From NCBI GenBank assembly GCA_016201105.1, contig JACQDN010000067.1:1-64000 (forward strand): DNA of 64,000 nt, read 5' to 3'. The notes under the pieces were generated by a model. It did no database searches, was not told the origin of the DNA, and saw only the letters and a list, made by a program, of their open reading frames with translations. Shown here one piece after another: positions 7,403-58,289 of this stretch. Source of the stretch: Pseudomonadota bacterium (GTDB lineage: Bacteria > Pseudomonadota > Alphaproteobacteria > Micropepsales > Micropepsaceae). Positions within the stretch are counted from its first letter, which is position 1, and every line of letters starts with the position of its first letter. The position numbers and the translations under genes were made by a program.

Positions 7403-7508
7403 GTGATAATCCCCAAACCCTGCAACCAAAGTCTACAGGACGAAGCTGGCGCAGTCACCCGCCAAATCCACGGGGCCATTCAGGGGCATCGGGGTATGTC
7501 CTGTAGAC

Positions 7509-7820
7509 GTGACCTGCGCGACCGCTGTTGTTACCCTCATAGGCGTGTCGAACGCAAAAGACGATTTGGGTGAACCAGCGCCGCCGGGGTGCTTTTTTAA
7601 ACTCCTGTTATCCCTGCCGTGGACGATCGCATGGGTCGAGTGGTTTGATCCTTGGGTCACTTCCATGGCGACTTGGCTCATGCCCTACATTGGGTTCGAT
7701 TGGGCTCAGGCCTTGGTGCTGATCGTTCCAGCCTTTATGGCGTTCTGCGGATGGCTGGCAACGATGAAATTGATCGCGATGATCTTCGAGATCGAAGATT
7801 GGCCGTACGGAAAGTCCTAG
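7509..7820 (+). CDS. Small membrane protein, unknown function
   Basis: The 103-residue ORF opens with GTG at 7509 (other in-frame starts exist downstream). It encodes two hydrophobic segments, roughly FFKLLLSLPWTIAWVEWF and WAQALVLIVPAFMAFCGWLA, consistent with an inner-membrane protein. No family is recognised. It is the only sensible coding frame here, but there is no strong ribosome-binding site. Confidence 0.5.
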   Translation: MTCATAVVTLIGVSNAKDDLGEPAPPGCFFKLLLSLPWTIAWVEWFDPWVTSMATWLMPYIGFDWAQALVLIVPAFMAFCGWLATMKLIAMIFEIEDWPYGKS

Positions 7821-42993: not shown

Positions 42994-43998
42994 TCAGTGC
43001 GGAATCGGAATCTCCGGCTTGGTGTCGGACTTGTCGTTGTCCGGCTCATCGCTTTTCTGGTCCTCGCGCGACGGGCCGCCGGTGTCGCTATTTTTGTGCG
43101 TCGTGTGGGGCTTGGGTTTGGCGGTCGATTTGTAGTTGTCCATGTAGAGCGGACTGTCTTCGCTCAGCCCGCGCTTGTTGCTCGCTTTGGATTTGGGACT
43201 TTTCAGCGGCGGCGGCGGTCCCGGCGGCTCCACGCTTTGCGGCGGTTGCACCAGGCAGGTGCGCTCGCAGACGTTCAGCGCCCGCGCATAGATCTGCATG
43301 TCGCTTTGCAGCTTGCTGATCGAATGTTTTTTCGCCCAGGCGTCTTTCAGCTCGTCGATGATGTCGTTCACCTGATCCGCCAGCGATTTGCATTTGGCGC
43401 AGCTGGTCACGACGTGATGCGGCTCGCGGTAGGGCGGTGGATTGCGATCGTTGGGACCTGGCGGATATGGCGGCATCGGTGGTGGGGGAGGCGGCGGCGT
43501 CACCGGGGTTTCGCAGGGCGGCAGCTTGTAAAGCGCTTCGAGCCAGTTGAGATCCACTTGACGCCGTTCTTCCAGGGTCTTCTGCGCGGTATCCAATTGC
43601 TTGATTTCGGTCTGGAGTTCGGCGATGCGAGGCACGCCGGCGTCGACGCCGCCGGAGAATTTCTGGTGGAAGCCGGCATTCGAATATTTTGTTTCGAGGG
43701 TTTCGAGTTCGCTCTCCGCTTTGATGATTTGCCAGGAGACCGAATCCGCCGCGACGTGATTCACCGCGATGTCGTCGTTGTACCATTCCACGGCTGCATA
43801 CCAGGCTTCGTTTCTGCAAATGATGCCTTTGGTCGAAGGCTCACCCTTGTGGTTCATCGCAGCATCGTAGGCGGTACGATCCCAGGCTTGCGCGACCACG
43901 ACGGATGCGGTGACGATGGCCGCCACGACAAAAAGCCATGCAATGGTCTGGAACCGCCCAACAATCCAGGCAGGAATCCGAGCAGCGGTGATTTTCAT
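42994..43998 (-). CDS. EIPIPH-tail family member: anchored coiled-coil protein
   Basis: The 334-residue product starts ATG 43998 with an N-terminal membrane/signal helix (about 16-36). Next come a helical segment bracketed by Cys61 and Cys162 (101 apart), a Pro-rich linker, then a hairpin-like Cys200-x2-Cys203 ... Cys244-x3-Cys248 segment. The tail reads DSPLYMDNYKS, HKNSDTGGPSREDQ and ends in EIPIPH. Two proteins at 55996 and 57186 share this plan and tail. Function unknown; the spaced Cys suggest disulfides in an oxidising compartment. Confidence 0.8.
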   Translation of the reverse strand: MKITAARIPAWIVGRFQTIAWLFVVAAIVTASVVVAQAWDRTAYDAAMNHKGEPSTKGIICRNEAWYAAVEWYNDDIAVNHVAADSVSWQIIKAESELETLETKYSNAGFHQKFSGGVDAGVPRIAELQTEIKQLDTAQKTLEERRQVDLNWLEALYKLPPCETPVTPPPPPPPMPPYPPGPNDRNPPPYREPHHVVTSCAKCKSLADQVNDIIDELKDAWAKKHSISKLQSDMQIYARALNVCERTCLVQPPQSVEPPGPPPPLKSPKSKASNKRGLSEDSPLYMDNYKSTAKPKPHTTHKNSDTGGPSREDQKSDEPDNDKSDTKPEIPIPH

Positions 43999-44206
43999 GG
44001 GCGCGTCCCCGGCCAGGTGACGATCTTGGGGGCAGCATAGGTCCGGCCGCGGCGGCTTCACAATGCGGCGGCGCGAACGGTTTTCGGATAACGTGCGCTG
44101 CCCACCCTAGGAGCGGCACGGGCGTTGGGCCGCCGCGTTCCTCCGGTCGATGCGCTTTGATAGTTTGAGAGAGGCCGATCGCCCGCTTACATATATAAGG
44201 ACAATC

Positions 44207-46468: not shown

Positions 46469-47461
46469 TCAATTGCCCGATACGACAATATCGCCGCGTT
46501 GCACCGCGGCACTTGGCAGTGTCTCGAAACGGCCGGTGGAGAACCTGTCCTGGACGCCGGTGATATCGATCACCGCGACGCGGGCTTTCAGCTCGCCCAA
46601 CACTTCGGACGTCGCGGGATCCGTGATCTGCTTGGTCACATGCTCGACCGCGAGTTTGTCGCCGACCTTCAAACCGGCGACACTGCCGGCGTTCACATAG
46701 ATGGTATCGCCGTCGATGTCGGCGATCTGAGCCTCCCAACGGCCGCCCGAAACGATCTGCACGATCTTGTTCACCGCATCGTTCATAGCTCCGCGCGTGG
46801 CTTCACCCAAAGGCGTATTCCAGAACGTGCTGTCGCCGAACGAGATTCCCTTGTAGTTGCCGGTAAATCCGAAGCTGGAATTCGAAACGTCCCTGGTGAC
46901 GACGAAGGACCCGATCACGGCCATAGTTCTTGCACTGATCACTTTGAAGTCGATGGCGATTTTTCCCGCCGTGTGCGACATCGATAGCGTGTTGTCGAAC
47001 GCGCCGCCGATGCCTCCGATCCCCGCCGACGTGCCGCGCGACTGGCCGAACTCGGTGACCATGCCGCTCACCGCATATTGCGCGGGGATCACGTGGCCGG
47101 ACGGAGCGACAATCTGGCCGCTCTCCGCAAGGCTCTTGGCCAGATCGTGTTCGCCTTGCAGTGTTGCCGCCACGCTGCGATCCACAACGATGAAGCGCTC
47201 AGATTCGGTGAGGGCCGTTGTCAGCATCGCGGACAATCCGGCTGACACGTCCCACCCGTTGGGATCGTTGGAGATGGGTCCGCTTGCCTGGATTTGATCG
47301 ACGAAGATCGATCGTCTCGGTCCGGCGATCTGTTGAACGGGTCCGGTGAGAATTGTGATGGGGGACTTTTCCGCCGCGTGCGCGGCGTCAAGCGCAAGGG
47401 TCAGGCAAAACGAGATTGCGAGACAGATCCACGCCAACCAGCGTACCGGAGTCAGTTTCAT
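46469..47461 (-). CDS. CsgG-family protein without lipobox
   Basis: From ATG 47461 the 330-residue product has a signal peptide of type I style (CLTLALDAAHAA) and the CsgG fold: SAGLSAMLTTALTESERFIVVDRSV, HVIPAQYAVSGMVTEFG and GKIAIDFKVISARTMAVIGS. CsgG forms the curli pore in the outer membrane and is normally a lipoprotein; here no lipobox Cys is evident. A C-terminal beta domain of about 90 residues extends it. It is divergent from the candidate RiPP cassette. Confidence 0.85.
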   Translation of the reverse strand: MKLTPVRWLAWICLAISFCLTLALDAAHAAEKSPITILTGPVQQIAGPRRSIFVDQIQASGPISNDPNGWDVSAGLSAMLTTALTESERFIVVDRSVAATLQGEHDLAKSLAESGQIVAPSGHVIPAQYAVSGMVTEFGQSRGTSAGIGGIGGAFDNTLSMSHTAGKIAIDFKVISARTMAVIGSFVVTRDVSNSSFGFTGNYKGISFGDSTFWNTPLGEATRGAMNDAVNKIVQIVSGGRWEAQIADIDGDTIYVNAGSVAGLKVGDKLAVEHVTKQITDPATSEVLGELKARVAVIDITGVQDRFSTGRFETLPSAAVQRGDIVVSGN

Positions 47462-47862
47462 CGCATGCTCCCAGTTCTGTGCTCGATCGACCTCTTCTTT
47501 GCGCGACGCAATCTGCACCGGAACACAATATCACCAGGCGGGGGCAGCGTGACCGACAAAGACGTGCAACCAGCGTCAAACAATATTGCGCACCCTCCGG
47601 ACTTGGACTGTCGTCCAGGCGAGGGCGGTTATCGTCCGCAGACGGAATTTGCTTGACGCCGCAGACACATGCGTCCCGCATTGTCGATGCGATGACTTTT
47701 TGTCATATGTTTGCGCGTTCATCTAAGTTGCCAGACCGCGCTGCAACATAAGTCGCGGTCCCGGAGGCTTCACATTGTGAAGCGTATGGGACCGAACTAG
47801 GATTAACGCGGCTCTGACAGCGGCGTCACTCAGCCATTGCAGATGCCGAGGGAGATCAAGCC
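47462..47862. promoter_or_regulatory. Divergent intergenic region with palindrome
   Basis: It holds the promoters of the CsgG-family gene (minus) and the cassette (plus). The clearest element is GCTTCACATTGTGAAGC at 47767-47783, with eight-base perfect arms around one T, 80 bases before the first gene of the cassette. No other gene is visible. Confidence 0.65.
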
Positions 47863-48240
47863 ATGCAGTTCAAGTTAACGGATTTTGTTGTGTTGCTTGC
47901 TGCGACGTCTGCTTTGACCGGGGTCAGCCTTGCCACGTCGAGTCCGGTGAGCGCCCAGACCCAACAACCCGCCACGACCTCGCCGATGGCCGCCCAGTCC
48001 AAAGATATGATGCAGTCATCGCACATCGCGATGCCGCATTCGAGCTTTGGAAAGCTAAAGGCAGAGCTTGCGCGTTCGCAGGATCCGACGAGGAACGCGA
48101 TCCTTCAAGCCGCGATGGATAGGTTGCAAAAGAGTCATCCGGGTGGCGCGGCGAACGACAGATGGAGCTTCAGCCTCGTGTTTACTTTGACTTGGGGCAG
48201 TATGGCCCAAGTCCCAGGCAACGGCACTATCCACGATTGA
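47863..48240 (+). CDS. Small secreted protein, candidate RiPP precursor
   Basis: The 125-residue product starts ATG 47863 (GGGAG upstream) with a Sec-like signal peptide (cut near VSA), a Gln/Thr/Pro/Met-rich middle, a helical segment (SFGKLKAELARSQDPTRNAI) and an unusual end with alternating aromatic and Ser/Thr residues, WSFSLVFTLTWG, and then VPGNGTIHD. It lies directly ahead of a radical SAM/SPASM gene and an HEXXH gene, which suggests it is their substrate. This is inference from position and composition. Confidence 0.6.
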   Translation: MQFKLTDFVVLLAATSALTGVSLATSSPVSAQTQQPATTSPMAAQSKDMMQSSHIAMPHSSFGKLKAELARSQDPTRNAILQAAMDRLQKSHPGGAANDRWSFSLVFTLTWGSMAQVPGNGTIHD

Positions 48241-48314
48241 TTGGGATTTCAGAAACGGACCGGCAGCCGCGCGCCGCAAACCTAGGCGCGCGGCCCGGGC
48301 ATTCGGATCGCGAG

Positions 48315-49454
48315 ATGTTCGGCGTATTCATTGTGAAGCTCACAGGCTTCTGCAATCTGAATTGCTCGTACTGCTATATGTTCAACAGCGCCGACCGCAG
48401 CTTCGAGCGCAAACCGAAATACCTGGACCGCGACGTCGCCTTGGCGGCGCTGCGGCGCATCGGATCGCATGTCGGGCGCGGCCCGACGAAGAAGGCTTCG
48501 ATCGTTCTTCACGGCGGCGAACCGACGTTGTGGCCGCTTGAATCGTTTCAAGCATTCTTTGACGAGATCGAGCGGCTGCGCGACGGCGGCATCGCCTGCG
48601 ACGTTTCCATGCAGACCAACATGTGGCAGCGGCCGAGTCGCGCGCTGATGGAACTCTGCCGGCGTCATCGCGTCGGACTCGGAATCAGCCTGGACGGCCC
48701 GCTCGAGATCAACGACCTTTACCGCCAGGATTTCGCGGGCCACGGTTCCTACCGCAAGATCATCGCCAACGTTCAGGCGTTGCTCGATGAGGGTTACGGC
48801 GACGTGATCGGCGGTTTCTTGTGCGTCATGCAGCCGGCGATTGCACCGGCCGCGTTCGTGCAATGGGTCGCGGGTCTTCCGATGAGCCGCGTCGATCTGT
48901 TGTGGCCGCTCCAATTCAACAAGGTCCATACGCCGTGGGCCGCCGGCGGCGAAGCGCCGTACACCAGAGATCCCAAATACGGAAAATGGGCCGAAGAGGT
49001 TTTCGAGGCCTGGTGGTCGCTCGACCGCCCCGACATTCATATCCGCATGTTCAACGATGCCATCGAAGCGCGGTTGGGTGGCGGGCGCTCCACCGACATG
49101 ATGGGCGCGCTGGCATTCCATTCGCTCGTTATCAACACGGACGGCGACATCGAGATGTCCGATTACTTTCGCACCTCCATCGATGGCGGCTGTGCGACGG
49201 GATATTCGGTGCTGCGCGACGATCTGGAGGCGGTCGCCCGCGATTCCAGGTTCGCCGCTATGAAACGAGCCGCTGAAACCGCGCCCAGGCGCTGCCGTTC
49301 ATGCAAGCATCTGGGAATCTGCGGCGGCGGCACGCTGGCCGGACGCCTCGACGCAGCGGGCAACGTGACGGCCGAGCCGTCTGTGCTGTGCGCCGACCAT
49401 ATGCGCCTCTTCGACACCATTGCCAGGCGTGTCGACGAAGCGGTCGCGGCCTAA
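48315..49454 (+). CDS. Radical SAM/SPASM peptide-modifying enzyme
   Basis: From ATG 48315 the 379-residue product carries the [4Fe-4S] cluster motif CNLNCSYC (Cys13, 17, 20), the HGGEPT loop, and a C-terminal SPASM region (CRSCKHLGICGGG, later LCADH) for extra iron-sulfur clusters. It groups by motif with peptide maturases of the FxsB/anaerobic-sulfatase-maturase type. A TTG at 48237, overlapping the precursor stop, is an alternative start. The HEXXH gene follows after four bases. Confidence 0.9.
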   Translation: MFGVFIVKLTGFCNLNCSYCYMFNSADRSFERKPKYLDRDVALAALRRIGSHVGRGPTKKASIVLHGGEPTLWPLESFQAFFDEIERLRDGGIACDVSMQTNMWQRPSRALMELCRRHRVGLGISLDGPLEINDLYRQDFAGHGSYRKIIANVQALLDEGYGDVIGGFLCVMQPAIAPAAFVQWVAGLPMSRVDLLWPLQFNKVHTPWAAGGEAPYTRDPKYGKWAEEVFEAWWSLDRPDIHIRMFNDAIEARLGGGRSTDMMGALAFHSLVINTDGDIEMSDYFRTSIDGGCATGYSVLRDDLEAVARDSRFAAMKRAAETAPRRCRSCKHLGICGGGTLAGRLDAAGNVTAEPSVLCADHMRLFDTIARRVDEAVAA

Positions 49455-49458
49455 CGCC

Positions 49459-50712
49459 ATGAAGCTCGACGGCGGCGAACTGCGAAACGTGCTCGGCGCT
49501 CCGGCGCCGCAGGTCACCGAGGCGCTCCTGCAATCGTCCGCGCGCAAGGCGTTCGATCATCTCAATATGGTGCGCGAGGTGGTCGAGCTCGCCGAAGGGC
49601 TGGAGGCGCACGCCGTGGCGCTGACGTCGCTTTGCTACGATATCGCCATCCGCGGCCCTGAGAGCGACGAACGCTTGCGCTCTCCGGCTTTTCGCGCCTG
49701 GCTCAGCGGCTTTTCGAGCATCGACGCGTGGTCGGCGGACAATCCCACGCTCGCGGCTCAGCTGGCCATGATCGACAACATGCGCTTCAGTCCGCTCGCC
49801 GACGGCGATTGGGAGGGAAATTTCGCCGTGCACGACGGCATCTGCGCCGGCTGGGATTGCCGGATTGCGCTTGGCGGCTTGCCGACGGGAAACGTGCATC
49901 TGGAAAAATCGGGCGCGCGCATTTCAGGGACGGTGCAGGGGAAAGCACCGATCGTTTTCGATCTTGGCGAAACACGCGATGTGCGCATCTTGCGCGCGCC
50001 CTATTTGCCGGATTCCAGCATTGCCGTTCGCAACGATCTGCCCCTGTTCAAGGTGCGCGTGCGCGAGGAAGCCATCTACACCAGGCGGGCGGTCGAGTAC
50101 GGCGACTATGACCCGCGCGAGGCCTCGTACGGGCCTTTCGATTGCGAGCCCTTCCTGCAGACCGCTTCGCTGCTTCGCGACGTCTGGCCCGAGGAATACG
50201 AAGATTGGAAGAAGACCCTTCGCATCGTCGTTCCCCGCAATGTGCCGCAGGGCTGGAAGATGGAAGGATTTACCGTCGGCTCCTATCAGGGCGCCTGCTG
50301 GATCGGCAGCCGCGCCTTTCCGGAATTGCTGGATTCGATGGTGCACGAGCAAAGCCATATCAAGCTGCGCTATGTGCAGGAGACCTGTCCGATCCTGGAA
50401 GACATCCAGCCGGACAAGGCGTTTGCCGTCGGCTGGCGCAAGGATCCCAGGCCGCTCGTCGGAATCTACGAAGGCGTCTATGTGCACCTTCATGTCGCGG
50501 AAGCCTTGCGCCGGGTCGTCGAGCGGGAAGCCGTGGGCGACGAGGGGATCGAGAACTGCCGGGCACGGCTCGACGAATTGCTGGTGCAGATCGTCGAAGC
50601 CAAGGACGTGCTGTCACGGCACGCGAAGTTCACGCCGGAAGGCGAGGCATTTCTTTCTTGGGCGAGCGAAGCCGTCGCCGACCATTCCCGCTTTGCGGCG
50701 GACACGCAGTGA
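49459..50712 (+). CDS. HEXXH-motif putative peptide modification protein
   Basis: The 417-residue product starts ATG 49459, four bases after the radical SAM stop. His296-Glu297-x-x-His300 in VHEQSH forms the HEXXH motif found in the TIGR04267-type domain that is often fused or adjacent to FxsB radical SAM enzymes. In some members the motif belongs to a beta-hydroxylase-like fold rather than a protease. Here it is a separate protein. The tail (AEALRRVVEREAVGDEG) is helical. The three genes look like one operon. Confidence 0.85.
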   Translation: MKLDGGELRNVLGAPAPQVTEALLQSSARKAFDHLNMVREVVELAEGLEAHAVALTSLCYDIAIRGPESDERLRSPAFRAWLSGFSSIDAWSADNPTLAAQLAMIDNMRFSPLADGDWEGNFAVHDGICAGWDCRIALGGLPTGNVHLEKSGARISGTVQGKAPIVFDLGETRDVRILRAPYLPDSSIAVRNDLPLFKVRVREEAIYTRRAVEYGDYDPREASYGPFDCEPFLQTASLLRDVWPEEYEDWKKTLRIVVPRNVPQGWKMEGFTVGSYQGACWIGSRAFPELLDSMVHEQSHIKLRYVQETCPILEDIQPDKAFAVGWRKDPRPLVGIYEGVYVHLHVAEALRRVVEREAVGDEGIENCRARLDELLVQIVEAKDVLSRHAKFTPEGEAFLSWASEAVADHSRFAADTQ

Positions 50713-51107
50713 GTCGGACAACCGCGCGACGGTGTCTCGGGCACCTCGGCGCAACGTCCTCTATGCGGATAATCGGTTGCACTCGCGGCATATTCCCAAT
50801 CCAGCAACTTATATTTGTGTCAAATGCTCGGGGTTCGCTCCGATTTTGAGCGCCTCAAAAGCGCTCCTCGGTTCGGTGCGGCCAAGGTATCCGGCCTTTT
50901 TCGCGAGCCGCCAACGTACATTTATGAACGAACTTCCGGGCGGTGTTCGAGTTCCGCCCATTAAGAGTTGAGAAACGTCAAAATCGCGACAGTGACATCG
51001 GCATGCTTTCTCGCGCGTCGGAAGATTGATATCTTACCTCCTGGGCTGGGGTTTTGGGGGGAATGTCAGTCGGCCGTTTTCGAAGTTGCGACGAAAGGAG
51101 CTATTCG
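50713..51107. other. 395-base gap without a supported gene
   Basis: Short frames on both strands lack start signals and natural composition. The sequence is less GC-rich around 50785-50830 and 51000-51060, consistent with promoters for the following gene. I see no repeat or RNA gene. Confidence 0.5.
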
Positions 51108-52379
51108 ATGGGCGCGTTCCAACCTGTACGTGCAACAGTCACACATCGTCATCAATCACGCTGGAGTTTGTGCGCTGCCGTCCTGGCCGCAATGGCCGTG
51201 TCAGTCGCGGCCGGATCGCCGTCCCGTGCGGCGACCCCCGTGCGCGTGCGCACTCACGTTACCGTCAGACAAGTTCAGTCCGACCCGGGTGTTCAACCCT
51301 TCTCCCAGTGGCGAGCCAGATTTGTCACGCTCATGCATCCAAGGCTCAACATCAATACGTTGAGGCTTCAAGCAGCGTCGGGCGCCACGGTTCCGTTCTG
51401 GACGTCGCTCGTAACCTCGCCGGTCGACGGATTGTCCTACACGACATCCATGGTAGGCGCCTCACCGTTCGCGACAACGACGAATACAAATGTCACCTAC
51501 GCGCCGATCGTTCTTCGTATCCACTTCGGCCGCAATGTGGTGCTCGATCCCACCCGGCCGGACTGCAGCGATACCGTAGCGATTTCGTCGCGGTTCTTTA
51601 GCTCTCCGCTGTTCCAGCCGTCATCGCTCACGTCCAATGGCGTCTATGTCGGCACTGTCCAGCTGATCAGCGGTTATCAACGGGCGAATTTCTGGACAAG
51701 CGTGTCGAGCAGCGGTTACGGAGTGACACTGGTCGCGTCAGGCGCCCCGATAGTCGTCGATGTCAACGCGCCCCTCGGCTCCAGGGTTTCTTCGATCACC
51801 CTGCAATGCGGCAACTCCGTCAAAACCGTCAAGCTCGGGCAAATCGATATCAATCGATATGACAGCCTGATCCAAAGCGTGATCTCGAGATACTCCAATG
51901 CATCGCAACTGCCCGTGGTTCTGACCTACAACGTGGTTCAGACAATCAGCGGCTCTTGCTGCGTTCTCGGATATCACAATGCGGTTCCGGTGAGTTCGGG
52001 TACCCAGACCTATGCGGTAGGCTCTTACATCGATTCCGGGATCTTTTCCGGGGTCGACGATATCGTGGTTTGGTCGCACGAGTTGGCCGAATGGCTGGAC
52101 GATCCGTTTGTACAAGCCTCCGTTCCAGGCGGCGGAAACGACGATCTGACACCTGCCTGGGGTCATGTCGGGCAAGTCTCGGGCTGTCAGAACAACCTGG
52201 AGAACGCCGATCCGCTGAGCGGCACGGAGTTCGCTCTCTCCGGCGCGGGCGGCTTTGTCTACCACTTCCAGGATATTGCCTTTGAGGACTGGTTTTACCG
52301 TACGCCGGCGCAAGGCACTCGGGGCTTGTTCTCGTTCACGGGTGACTTTGCGACGGATGCAGGCGCCGTTTGTCATTGA
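51108..52379 (+). CDS. Secreted putative metalloprotease-like protein (HExxE)
   Basis: From ATG 51108 (AGGAG eight bases upstream) the 423-residue product has a signal peptide (to about RAA), a beta-rich N-terminal part, and SHELAEWLDDP with His324-Glu325-x-x-Glu328. HExxE with a nearby DDP and the conserved GCQNNLENADPL segment suggests a zinc site. It may be a metallopeptidase or an inactive relative. Four Cys may form disulfides. It follows the candidate RiPP cassette by 395 bases. Confidence 0.6.
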   Translation: MGAFQPVRATVTHRHQSRWSLCAAVLAAMAVSVAAGSPSRAATPVRVRTHVTVRQVQSDPGVQPFSQWRARFVTLMHPRLNINTLRLQAASGATVPFWTSLVTSPVDGLSYTTSMVGASPFATTTNTNVTYAPIVLRIHFGRNVVLDPTRPDCSDTVAISSRFFSSPLFQPSSLTSNGVYVGTVQLISGYQRANFWTSVSSSGYGVTLVASGAPIVVDVNAPLGSRVSSITLQCGNSVKTVKLGQIDINRYDSLIQSVISRYSNASQLPVVLTYNVVQTISGSCCVLGYHNAVPVSSGTQTYAVGSYIDSGIFSGVDDIVVWSHELAEWLDDPFVQASVPGGGNDDLTPAWGHVGQVSGCQNNLENADPLSGTEFALSGAGGFVYHFQDIAFEDWFYRTPAQGTRGLFSFTGDFATDAGAVCH

Positions 52380-52474
52380 CTGGATCAACCAAAAATCCAG
52401 CCGGATCGAGCGCAGGGACGGTTAACCGAAGAGGATGAATTTACAAAGCAGATGCAGTCGAGCATCCTTGTTTG

Positions 52475-54019
52475 ATGCTTGAGATCCGGAGCGGCATTGC
52501 TGCACGATCGCTGTTGGCGCTGGCGGTTGCGCTTCTGGTATTGGGCCAGCGCTCCGCGATCGCACAGGGAAACAGAACGCCTGCGCTGCTGACAGGTGTG
52601 TCTGTTGCCGCCGGGCAAGGGCGCGCAACGCGCGTAATTCTGACATTCAGTCAAGATGTGCCCCAGTACTCGGTTGTCTCAAACGATTCGCAGCACGTCG
52701 TCATCGGGTTCGAAGGCACCGTTCGCGCGCAGCAAGCGGTTGCTCCCATCAACGCGCAGGGGGTTCTCGGATCCATAGAATTCGATCAAAACGCCAAAGT
52801 TCTTTCGCTGTCGTTGATCGGAACCACAACATTTCATGTAGCGGCGATACCGATTAATTCACGTACCTTGAGCCTGTCTTTGACTGCGATCTCAAACGTC
52901 AAGGCCTTCAAGGGATCGGTCACGGAAGCAACGCAGGACGCTGTTCCCGCCCGTGTGGATTGGAAGCGCGGGGGTTTTGAAGTTGTGCTGCTGAAGTATG
53001 CTGATGTGAGCGAGATTGTGGGTATCCTGACGTCGTCGCAGGATGTCAGGCCGAATGACAACTTCAATCCTCAGGAGCCGGCGTTCGGGTCGTCCGGGGT
53101 CAACAACTACGGCAACACCGGGGTTTCGACGAGTCTGTTTCCGGGCAGCGGAACGCAGACTGCGCCTGCCGAAGAGCAAGCCCTGGGTCAATCGATCAAC
53201 GAAGACATTGGCATCGATCGCCGTTTGAACGCGATCATCCTGCACGGATCGGCCGCCCATATTGCGCAGCTGAAGGCGATCATCGCCCAACTCGATGTTC
53301 CTGTAACCAGCGTCGTGCTGGAAACCGTTTTCGTCGAACTGACCGAGACCGGGGCGCACAATGTCGGACTGGATTTCAACAACAGCAATTCGCAGATTGC
53401 CGTTGTCACCTACGATGCCGGCTCGTTCAATCCCAACAACTTTGGAACGGCTCGCGGCCTGGTCAGTGCGTCGCTGCAAGCCGCCATTTATGCCCAGGTG
53501 AAAGAGGGCCGGGGAAGGATCATCTCCAAGCCGCGGATCGCGGCGCAGAGCGGTTCGTCGGCCAAGATTGTGACGGGTGATGCCTTGCCGATCCTGACGG
53601 CCATCACACTGTCGGGCGTCAATGGCGTGTCGCAGCAGGTTCAATATGTGAATGTCGGGGTCTCGCTGCAAATCGCCCCGCGCGTCAGCGACAACGGCGA
53701 TGTTACGTCCCATATTTTCTGCGAAGTCTCGAGCGTGACCGGCTACAGCCAAGGTTATCCCACGATCAGTCAGCGCGAAGCCTCGACATCGGCCACGGTC
53801 AAGGATGGCGAGTCCTTCATCATCGGGGGGCTAAGCCAGGAGAACAAGCTTTCCAGCAACAACCGGGTGCCGGGTCTGGGAGATATTCCTCTCATCGGCG
53901 ATCTTTTCGATTTCGACTCGGGAACGTCCTCCAAGACCGACCTTTACATCGTCGTCACGCCCCACATCGTGCACGGCCGCGATACCGCAGCCACCGACAT
54001 AGTCAAAACCGTGCCTTGA
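52475..54019 (+). CDS. Orphan secretin with AMIN-like N terminus
   Basis: The 514-residue product (ATG 52475; TTG 52472 adds one residue) has a signal peptide (to AIA), an AMIN-like beta domain (ATRVILTFSQDVPQYSVV), a secretin N-domain (FEVVLLKYADVSEIVGIL) and the secretin core ending VPGLGDIPLIGDLF and DLYIVVTPHIV. Secretins form large outer-membrane rings for type II secretion or type IV pili. No other secretion genes are adjacent, so its partners lie elsewhere. Confidence 0.88.
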   Translation: MLEIRSGIAARSLLALAVALLVLGQRSAIAQGNRTPALLTGVSVAAGQGRATRVILTFSQDVPQYSVVSNDSQHVVIGFEGTVRAQQAVAPINAQGVLGSIEFDQNAKVLSLSLIGTTTFHVAAIPINSRTLSLSLTAISNVKAFKGSVTEATQDAVPARVDWKRGGFEVVLLKYADVSEIVGILTSSQDVRPNDNFNPQEPAFGSSGVNNYGNTGVSTSLFPGSGTQTAPAEEQALGQSINEDIGIDRRLNAIILHGSAAHIAQLKAIIAQLDVPVTSVVLETVFVELTETGAHNVGLDFNNSNSQIAVVTYDAGSFNPNNFGTARGLVSASLQAAIYAQVKEGRGRIISKPRIAAQSGSSAKIVTGDALPILTAITLSGVNGVSQQVQYVNVGVSLQIAPRVSDNGDVTSHIFCEVSSVTGYSQGYPTISQREASTSATVKDGESFIIGGLSQENKLSSNNRVPGLGDIPLIGDLFDFDSGTSSKTDLYIVVTPHIVHGRDTAATDIVKTVP

Positions 54020-55995: not shown

Positions 55996-57048
55996 ATGAA
56001 TTTCGTGTGGCGAATGGCACGCATTCCGGCACTTGCGGCTTTGATATGTGCGTTGTCGTTCTTTGCGATCGGCACAACCGGCGCCTACGCCCAAGAGAAA
56101 AAGACCGAGCATTGCCGCACGGCGGCCGACGATGCGGAACTCGTCAAACTCGAGACGGAGCTCGAAAATCTGCGTACGCACCGCCAAGTGCTGGAACACC
56201 TGAAGCACGATGCGGAAGAGGTCCTCAAAATCGCCAAAGACGATGACAAGTATTTCGACGAAAAGCATCCCGATATCGACGGCAAGTGGGCCAAGCACAA
56301 GGCCGACCTACAAAAGGGGATTGACGATCTGGCTGCCCTGCTGAAGGAAGACGCGGCCAGGACGAGCGAAGTGGAAGCCCGGATCAGGGTGTTGAAGGCC
56401 ATGAAGCCTTGTGCGCCCGGCAGCGAAACGCCTCCTCCCGTCGGTCCGTCGACGGCGACGCCGCCCGTGCCAGCGCATCCCTGCCGCACGCCCGAAGACG
56501 ACAAGAGGATCGACGCCCTGAACGTGAAGAAGGCGATCTATCAAAAGGAGTTGAGCCTTGTGAACGGCTGGATCAAGTCGCTGATAAAGAGCTACGTTAA
56601 GCTCAAGCAGAAGGGCGATGCACCCCTCGAGCTGGCGAGCGTGGACAAGCAGCTCACGTCCTTTCAAAATCTGCGCTTCTATCTGGAAGTCGAGATCGGA
56701 AATCTTGGCGCACAGATCAAAGCGTTGCAGGCCCTCAAGCCATGCCCCGAAGAGCCCAAGACCACGCCGCAGCCGACCCCGCAGAGCGGGGAGAAACCTC
56801 CCACGGGCGGCAGCAAGACAACCGCGCCCAAGCATCCCAAGAAGCCGGTGAAACACGGCAAGCGCGCCGTGACGGAAGACAATCCGCTCTACGAAGAGCA
56901 TTACACGCCGCCGCCGAGCACCAAGACCAAAACGCACAAGAAGAGCGGCGACGACACCTCCGGCCCGTCGCGCGACGACGCCGACCGGCAGACGGACGAA
57001 CCGTCAAACGACAACGCGAACCAACCGGAGATTCCGATTCCGCACTGA
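55996..57048 (+). CDS. EIPIPH-tail family member: Cys-bracketed coiled-coil protein
   Basis: The 350-residue product has a signal peptide (to about AYA) and two helical units, each bounded by cysteines: Cys40 to Cys139 and Cys163 to Cys250, starting CRTAADDAEL / CRTPEDDKRI and ending LKAMKPC / LQALKPC. The Cys-to-Cys distances (99 and 87) fit disulfide-closed helical hairpins. A Pro-rich linker leads to a tail with EDNPLYEEHY and a final EIPIPH. There is no Cys in the mature protein outside these two pairs. Its 3' end is nearly identical to that of the next gene. Function unknown. Confidence 0.85.
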   Translation: MNFVWRMARIPALAALICALSFFAIGTTGAYAQEKKTEHCRTAADDAELVKLETELENLRTHRQVLEHLKHDAEEVLKIAKDDDKYFDEKHPDIDGKWAKHKADLQKGIDDLAALLKEDAARTSEVEARIRVLKAMKPCAPGSETPPPVGPSTATPPVPAHPCRTPEDDKRIDALNVKKAIYQKELSLVNGWIKSLIKSYVKLKQKGDAPLELASVDKQLTSFQNLRFYLEVEIGNLGAQIKALQALKPCPEEPKTTPQPTPQSGEKPPTGGSKTTAPKHPKKPVKHGKRAVTEDNPLYEEHYTPPPSTKTKTHKKSGDDTSGPSRDDADRQTDEPSNDNANQPEIPIPH

Positions 57049-57185: not shown

Positions 57186-58289
57186 ATGGCCATCGCATCG
57201 CTCCGTCACGCCCATTCTGACGGCCCCGTCAAATCGAATTCTGCGCTCTTCAAGCGAGCGGTGCGCGCGGTCGTATTCGGCGCGCTGGCCAGTGCGTTTT
57301 GTTTCTTCTCTGTTGGAATAACAGACGCGCATGCGCAAGCCGGACAACCCGCCGTCAAATGCCGCACCGCAGCCGACGACGCCGAACTGGCGAAACTGGT
57401 GAAGGAGCTCGACAGCCTGAAGGGCCACAAATGGCGGCTGGAAGCGCTGAAGGCGGAAGCGCAGAAACGGCTCGAAGGCGATAAACAAGACAAAGAATAT
57501 TTGCCCTGGCCGCGCAAACAGGAAGATATCGCACAGGCCGATGCGCGCATCGAACAAACGACCAAGGACATCGCCATGCTGGACGCGGCGCTGAAGGAGA
57601 ACGCGGCAAGGATGAGCGAAGTGGAAGCAAAGATCGCCGCGCTGAAGGCGCTGCCGCCCTGTCAGGGTCCGTCCGCCGGTCCGGGTCCAGTGCCGCCGCC
57701 GGCCGCCATCCCTCCGTGCCGAACTGCGGAAGTCGATGCTCAGATCGCCGCATTGAAGGCGAAAAAGGAGCTCTATGAGAGAGAACTGCGGCTCTTGGGA
57801 CGTACGATAAAAACTTTAGGCAAGCGCGTCAGCCCTTTACGAGATCCCCGGAATTATAGGCCCGAGGAAGAAAACGGCCTGCGAGCCCTCGACAGGCAGC
57901 TTACAGAATATGAAAGGCAACGCACAATTCTGGAGGCGGAGATCGCCGCGCTGGACGCTCAGATCAGAGCGCTGGCGGCGCTCAAGCCCTGTCCCGAAGA
58001 ACATTGGACGACGCCGCAGCCGCCGGGCGTGGAAAAACCTGTCGTTGGCGGCGGCAAGACAACCCCGCCCAAGCATCCCAAGAAGCCGGTGAAACACGGC
58101 AAGCGAGCCGTGACGGAAGACAATCCGCTCTACGAAGAGCACTACACGCCGCCGCCGAGCACCAAGACCAGAACGCACAAGAAGAGCGGCGACGACACCT
58201 CCGGCCCGTCGCGCGACGATGCCGACCGGCAGACCGACGAACCGTCAAACGACAACGCAAACCAACCGGAGATCCCGATTCCGCATTAG
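57186..58289 (+). CDS. EIPIPH-tail family member: Cys-bracketed coiled-coil protein, paralogue
   Basis: The 367-residue product has a longer N-terminal region before its signal/membrane helix (to AHA, about 50), then two helical units: Cys59 to Cys159 (100 apart) and Cys178 to Cys269 (91 apart), starting KCRTAADDAEL / PCRTAEVDAQI and ending LKALPPC / LAALKPC. The tail is the same as in the gene above, almost base for base. The two are separated by 137 bases and are a recent tandem duplication. Confidence 0.85.
   Translation: MAIASLRHAHSDGPVKSNSALFKRAVRAVVFGALASAFCFFSVGITDAHAQAGQPAVKCRTAADDAELAKLVKELDSLKGHKWRLEALKAEAQKRLEGDKQDKEYLPWPRKQEDIAQADARIEQTTKDIAMLDAALKENAARMSEVEAKIAALKALPPCQGPSAGPGPVPPPAAIPPCRTAEVDAQIAALKAKKELYERELRLLGRTIKTLGKRVSPLRDPRNYRPEEENGLRALDRQLTEYERQRTILEAEIAALDAQIRALAALKPCPEEHWTTPQPPGVEKPVVGGGKTTPPKHPKKPVKHGKRAVTEDNPLYEEHYTPPPSTKTRTHKKSGDDTSGPSRDDADRQTDEPSNDNANQPEIPIPH

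Follow-up and report, generated by a model that had tools for sequence, protein, structure and literature searches.

Several described systems share parts of their design with the locus analysed here. ChlBH of Chlorogloeopsis is a fused radical SAM (rSAM) and αKG-HExxH enzyme (Morishita et al. 2024, as cited in PMC12636437), in which ChlH catalyzes β-hydroxylation of Asp and His (PMC12636437). Stand-alone αKG-HExxH proteins are represented by PflC/PosC and BpmH, which act on RiPP precursors (PMC12636437); PflC/PosC hydroxylate a Gln and cleave the backbone oxidatively (PMC12636437). YhhB, XncB, OscB and MscB are formers of three-residue cyclophanes, and the cross-link introduced by MscB joins C4 of Phe to Cβ of Ser (PMC11002830). 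In the YhhA/YhhB and FxsA/FxsB triceptide systems, a small substrate gene lies directly upstream of the SPASM enzyme, and some of them have an oxygenase partner (YhhC or an HExxH protein). Bufferins and oxazolins, which are MNIO-modified, have a Sec signal peptide on the precursor and enzymes encoded just downstream (PMC12452194). Sec signal peptides are highly unusual among RiPP precursors, and bufferins are the only ones for which experiments have demonstrated the use of Sec by the natural host (PMC12452194).

The three-gene unit studied here comes from an alphaproteobacterium and is located in a window of 64,000 nucleotides, the whole stretch of DNA that was analysed. All three ORFs are on the forward strand and separated by short gaps, at the positions given in the preliminary description, and the gene order (substrate, rSAM, HExxH) and short gaps are as in relatives. 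The features, in window coordinates except for the last, are:

47767-47783, no strand: palindrome GCTTCACATTGTGAAGC, with arms of 8 and a single central base; candidate operator
47848-47853, forward strand: GAGGGA, probable ribosome-binding sequence of ORF1; the same sequence is present at the paralog
47863-48240, forward strand: ORF1, candidate RiPP precursor of 125 aa, ATG start
47863-47955, forward strand: signal-peptide-like segment, ORF1 residues 1–31, MQFKLTDFVVLLAATSALTGVSLATSSPVSA, from sequence and hydrophobicity scan
48040-48135, forward strand: leader-like region, ORF1 residues 60–91, with two predicted helices (61–71 and 75–91); nearly identical in the paralog
48136-48237, forward strand: candidate core, ORF1 residues 92–125, HPGGAANDRWSFSLVFTLTWGSMAQVPGNGTIHD, predicted to be disordered and to hold the putative modification sites
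48315-49454, forward strand: ORF2, radical SAM/SPASM peptide maturase, ChlB/YhhB/FxsB-like, 379 aa; alternative start TTG 48237
49459-50712, forward strand: ORF3, αKG-HExxH-type peptide β-hydroxylase homologue, 417 aa
Contig C54, 63378-63743 (L110:1501-1866): orphan ORF1 paralog, 72% identical, with a conserved upstream block

The ORF2 frame is open from an ATG at 48162, inside ORF1, and its conserved part begins at the ATG at 48315 (MFGVFIVKLTGFCNLNCSYC); translation could also start at the TTG at 48237, which overlaps the stop of ORF1. The ORF3 frame opens at 49420, with a likely start at the ATG at 49459, four bases past the ORF2 stop. The third-position G+C (0.68 for ORF1 and 0.78 for both ORF2 and ORF3) is in line with that of neighbouring genes.

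Other genes flank the unit. A CsgG/FlgT-like protein is encoded divergently from the cluster (window 46469-47518, reverse strand). Just downstream of the cluster is a protein of 441 aa that looks secreted, contains a HELAEW motif and has no Pfam match (window 51054-52379, forward strand); a secretin gene follows it (52472-54019). Three further secreted-looking proteins (window 42994-44061, reverse strand; 55996-57048 and 57186-58289, forward strand) have a common C-terminal tail, ...GPSR(E/D)D...DEP.ND...PEIPIPH; the two members of this tail family that were searched gave no confident Pfam match.

ORF3 is almost certainly a member of the αKG-HExxH peptide β-hydroxylase family, as judged from both profile and modelled fold, with its catalysis predicted accordingly from the family. 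Its sole match in NCBIfam is TIGR04267, ‘aKG-HExxH-type peptide beta-hydroxylase’ (92.5 bits, cut-off 40), the family to which the preliminary description had pointed, with the correction that the chemistry described for this family is α-ketoglutarate-dependent hydroxylation (PMC12636437). The significant relatives of ORF3 among solved structures are 22nu (a PDB chain of a 440-residue HExxH protein) and ChlH (8s5f), against which a 26-sequence profile of ORF3 scored 389 and 99 bits, respectively. The AlphaFold2 model, built from the 26-sequence alignment (pLDDT 71, with residues 129–224 poorly modelled), superposes onto ChlH 8s5f with a Z of 27.1 and an rmsd of 3.6 over 293 residues, and onto SjiH (22ob) with a Z of 25.5, compared to a Z of 7.2 for the next unrelated row. 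ORF3 retains His296, Glu297 and His300 of the HExxH motif (VHEQSH, residues 295–300), as well as Trp326, Arg327, Asp329, Arg331 and Pro332 of the WRxDxRP segment. On the TIGR04267 profile and the ChlH fold, we reject the reading of ORF3 as a peptidase.

The closest profiles to ORF2 are YhhB (NF041707; 241 bits, cut-off 445) and FxsB (TIGR04269; 233 bits, cut-off 370), and the best match among solved structures is ChlB (9gm3; 137 bits), in agreement with the kinship to FxsB and the cyclophane formers proposed earlier. The invariant cysteines are present, both those of the CxxxCxxC motif (Cys13, Cys17 and Cys20) and those of the SPASM region (Cys327, Cys330, Cys336 and Cys359). As ORF2 scores below every curated cut-off, it qualifies for no named subfamily (YhhB, FxsB or TIGR03942), and its reaction is not readable from its family. 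In a tree of 97 related domains, no branch is longer than that of ORF2, at 2.15 changes per column against a median of 0.33; ORF2 has no supported close partner there, and its highest identity is 33%. The best interpretation of these sequence comparisons is that ORF2 would work like a cyclophane (triceptide) former.

ORF2 also matches the sulfatase-maturase model TIGR03942, at 125 bits, and the genome contains four sulfatase-superfamily genes, so that an anaerobic sulfatase maturase in a cluster unrelated to peptides might be considered. We regard this as highly improbable and reject it on scores and neighbourhood. The score is far under the cut-off of 349 and lower than those of YhhB and FxsB; sulfatase maturases follow ChlB among the solved structures, at 66 bits; and the αKG-HExxH partner indicates peptides. 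None of the four sulfatase-superfamily genes is on the contig of the cluster (C11), and no sulfatase was detected in the surroundings examined. Thus, the sulfatase maturase with a sulfatase nearby, which the preliminary description had named as the finding that would speak against it, was not encountered.

The separate HExxH protein, presented earlier as a notable feature, turned out to be ordinary. In the tree set, 20 of the 97 related rSAM domains are fused to an HExxH domain, and a separate same-strand HExxH ORF was scored for at most 35 of the 97, an upper count that includes some overlapping frames and genes at distances above 500 bases. Start–stop overlaps of 4 bp between the rSAM and HExxH genes are frequent (for example L013, L014, L018, L032, L035 and L054), and NCBI annotates rSAM and separate HExxH pairs in Rhizobium ruizarguesonis and Nocardia. 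On these counts, the novelty of a separate HExxH protein is rejected. The term undescribed can be justified for the substrate family, which has no match in profile libraries, and does not apply to the enzyme pair, which is common in both fused and separate form. Two alphaproteobacterial loci (L118:2786-5577, reverse strand, and L117:1516-4355, forward strand) encode an rSAM enzyme, a short peptide whose tail is YxxTxHRHNR-like, one additional small protein and an HExxH protein; they look like YhhA/B/C systems to which an αKG-HExxH enzyme has been added.

ORF1 is almost certainly a real gene, given its 72% identical paralog, the same upstream block at both copies and the third-position bias in the C-terminal codons. 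The Sec-like leader and the aromatic end previously noted in this 125-residue protein are both kept in the paralog. ORF1 has no known match in the profile libraries (none in NCBIfam at E up to 1), and the YhhA precursor profile NF041705 matched neither ORF1 (E up to 1) nor the paralog (E up to 10). Its start is signal-peptide-like by a scan of composition and hydrophobicity and by a conserved AxA-type site, with likely signal peptidase cleavage between VSA and QT in ORF1 and between ASA and DQ in the paralog; the protein is likely to be exported. Residues 1–31 are conserved between the two copies, 32–59 are divergent and 60–125 are nearly identical. The conserved elements include HPGGAAND(R/K)WSFSLVF(T/N)L(T/S)WGS and, at the very end, the seven residues GNGTIHD. 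Aromatic-X-X motifs (WSF, FSL, F(T/N)L and WGS) are present and kept in the paralog, such motifs being frequent by chance. A model of ORF1 from its single sequence (mean pLDDT 50, about 74 in residues 60–91) has helices at 6–18, 61–71 and 75–91 and is mostly disordered after residue 92. A signal peptide, leader-like helices and an apparently unstructured tail are as expected for a Sec-type RiPP precursor, an architecture that does not by itself prove modification.

The paralog, on contig C54 and far from the enzymes, is the sole ORF1 relative in this genome; no rSAM or HExxH gene was found in the 10.8 kb around it. A secreted-looking 273-aa protein with no Pfam match is encoded divergently from it (L115:6156-6977, reverse strand). 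A third partial match to ORF1 (window 7502-7696; E 0.05, with a stop) was taken as chance. The DNA similarity between ORF1 and the paralog starts upstream of the palindrome, spans the ribosome-binding sequence and goes no further than the stop codon of ORF1. Of the 37 base differences in the 62 C-terminal codons, 26 fall at third codon positions (P about 5e-6 if all positions were equal), and 22 codon changes are silent while 8 are not, a pattern indicating that the pair is under purifying selection. The perfect palindrome noted earlier at 47767 is present; its inner 11 bases, TCACATTGTGA, have just two occurrences in the genome of 3.85 Mb, one upstream of ORF1 and the other upstream of the paralog, in the same place and orientation. 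This recurrence is only a weak hint of an operator, since the two regions share descent and the surrounding block is conserved as well. A promoter scan found nothing.

Of the 96 genomes examined from the bacterial family, only this one has ORF1 and the HExxH protein, and the rSAM enzyme is found here and as one 31% identical enzyme of another lineage with its own HExxH neighbour. No orthologous cluster was detected in the family (96 genomes), the class (387) or the phylum (397), or in plasmids and viral contigs. The class and phylum samples also yielded no close relative of the rSAM enzyme. A wider contig scan gave no close rSAM relative or orthologous cluster among the matches listed, and orthologues may exist. 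Relatives of ORF1 were sought across the family, in 30 genomes or records that carry the nearest rSAM genes, and among plasmids and viral contigs, and only the two copies of this genome were returned; weak matches in G116 and G002, which overlap with other genes, were taken as chance. E. coli genomes gave no match. As no orthologous cluster was found, the link between substrate and enzymes rests on gene order and shared rarity, from which we consider ORF1 to be probably the substrate of ORF2 and ORF3.

A scan upstream of about 100 related rSAM genes, for a ribosome-binding sequence and a signal-peptide-like start, gave one convincing case beyond ORF1 and its paralog, in Spirirestis rafaelensis:

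L018:4431-4784: Spirirestis candidate precursor, ATG after AAGGAG, a good Shine-Dalgarno sequence; signal-peptide-like start, then a YhhA-like leader and YDSHGSSHS

It is followed by tandem rSAM and HExxH genes, the same gene order as here, with an overlap of 4 bp between the two in Spirirestis, although the precursor sequences are dissimilar and the YhhA-like leader and YDSHGSSHS stretch are features of the Spirirestis protein. The remaining matches of the scan look like other proteins, and the precursors at the loci of proteobacterial relatives have the form of plain leader peptides that often end in YNRxxHRHNR-like sequences. In the literature we found no signal-peptide precursor of a cyclophane former, in a search that left subscription papers mostly outside and so does not prove absence.

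The locus can thus be compared with the described systems. It has the two domains of ChlB/ChlH in the same order, with ChlH and ChlB as the structural matches given above; unlike ChlBH, the domains are separate proteins, the identity over the HExxH fold is 14%, and the substrate has a Sec-like signal peptide. The small candidate substrate gene upstream and the SPASM enzyme of the wider family are shared with triceptide systems, and the oxygenase partner with some of them, whereas the ORF2 scores fall short of YhhB and FxsB, and ORF1 matches neither NF041705 nor other precursor models and lacks the His-rich core of YhhA. The position of the enzymes downstream of a candidate precursor with a Sec-like leader is that of bufferins and oxazolins; in contrast to those, the operon has no MNIO or DUF2063 partner, ORF1 has no cysteine, and the enzymes are an rSAM and an αKG-HExxH protein. 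ORF3 stands alone, as do PflC/PosC and BpmH, but these act from clusters that contain further enzymes (an MNIO-nitroreductase next to PflC), and the PflC/PosC substrate motifs are absent here.

We lean towards a compact RiPP operon, in which the Sec-leader protein ORF1 would be cross-linked by ORF2, β-hydroxylated by ORF3 and exported, with the paralog modified in trans. In ORF1, the signal peptide would be followed by a helical segment for recognition (the leader) and by an aromatic C-terminal core that is rich in Ser/Thr. ORF2 would bind the leader in the cytoplasm and join a core aromatic residue (Trp101, Phe103, Phe107 or Trp111) to the β-carbon two residues on, giving a three-residue cyclophane. 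Trp111-Gly-Ser113 would be closest to the published Phe-X-Ser substrate of MscB, which we take, from its InterPro number in PMC11002830, to be of the FxsB type. ORF3 may then hydroxylate β-carbons, for example in the conserved Ile-His-Asp tail, His and Asp being the residues targeted by ChlH. Once modified, the protein would leave through Sec, with signal peptidase cutting after VSA, and the orphan paralog on C54 would be modified by the same two enzymes. Provided that ORF1 is the substrate, the combination of a cyclophane and a β-hydroxyl is, by analogy with the characterized relatives, the outcome to be expected on balance.

The pairing of ORF1 with the enzymes is a single case, since no second genome with an ORF1 relative and an orthologous enzyme was found, and the C-terminal ‘core’ is conserved as much as the leader between the two copies, while RiPP cores often vary; both points weigh against the RiPP operon. 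ORF1 could be an ordinary small exported protein, present in two copies, that happens to lie before a RiPP enzyme pair, the true precursor being elsewhere or a missed short ORF. The paralog stands alone, so ORF1-like proteins need no such neighbours, and ORF1 is longer than usual and has a Sec-like leader, unlike nearly all precursors at related loci. However, the gaps before and just after the enzymes hold no other plausible small ORF of at least 30 aa, ORF1 resembles a precursor in lying upstream, in the short gap that follows it and in its leader-plus-tail design, and ORF1 and the HExxH protein both occur in one and the same of 96 family genomes. We therefore consider an ordinary protein rather unlikely.

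ORF1 might also be the substrate of a different chemistry, either another rSAM cross-link or an oxidative backbone cleavage by the HExxH enzyme, as in PflC/PosC, releasing a C-terminal fragment. The long, isolated branch of ORF2, below all cut-offs, would allow for this, and oxidative backbone cleavage is known for αKG-HExxH enzymes alongside hydroxylation (PMC12636437). The nearest characterized relatives of ORF2, by profile and by solved structure, are nonetheless cyclophane formers, and ORF1 lacks the C-terminal ARMD motif used by PflC/PosC, which makes a different chemistry improbable.

Returning to the operon of Sec-exported substrate, cross-linking enzyme and hydroxylase, what is new here is the type of substrate, with an ordinary export signal that is rare for such products; the enzyme families are known. 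A bolder reading, which we put forward tentatively, is that the locus represents a new class of RiPP: a Sec-exported protein about 90 residues long would be modified by a divergent SPASM enzyme together with a stand-alone αKG-HExxH hydroxylase, and a shared operator would control two unlinked substrates, of which one is an orphan acted on in trans; the products would be cross-linked exported proteins and not classical leader–core peptides. If the rSAM/αKG-HExxH pair does act on a Sec substrate, cyclophane or hydroxylation chemistry would be used on exported proteins too, and this would raise the question of how modification finishes before translocation. The unlinked paralog would offer a built-in test of leader recognition, since its helices and core are nearly identical to those of ORF1 and its spacer is not.
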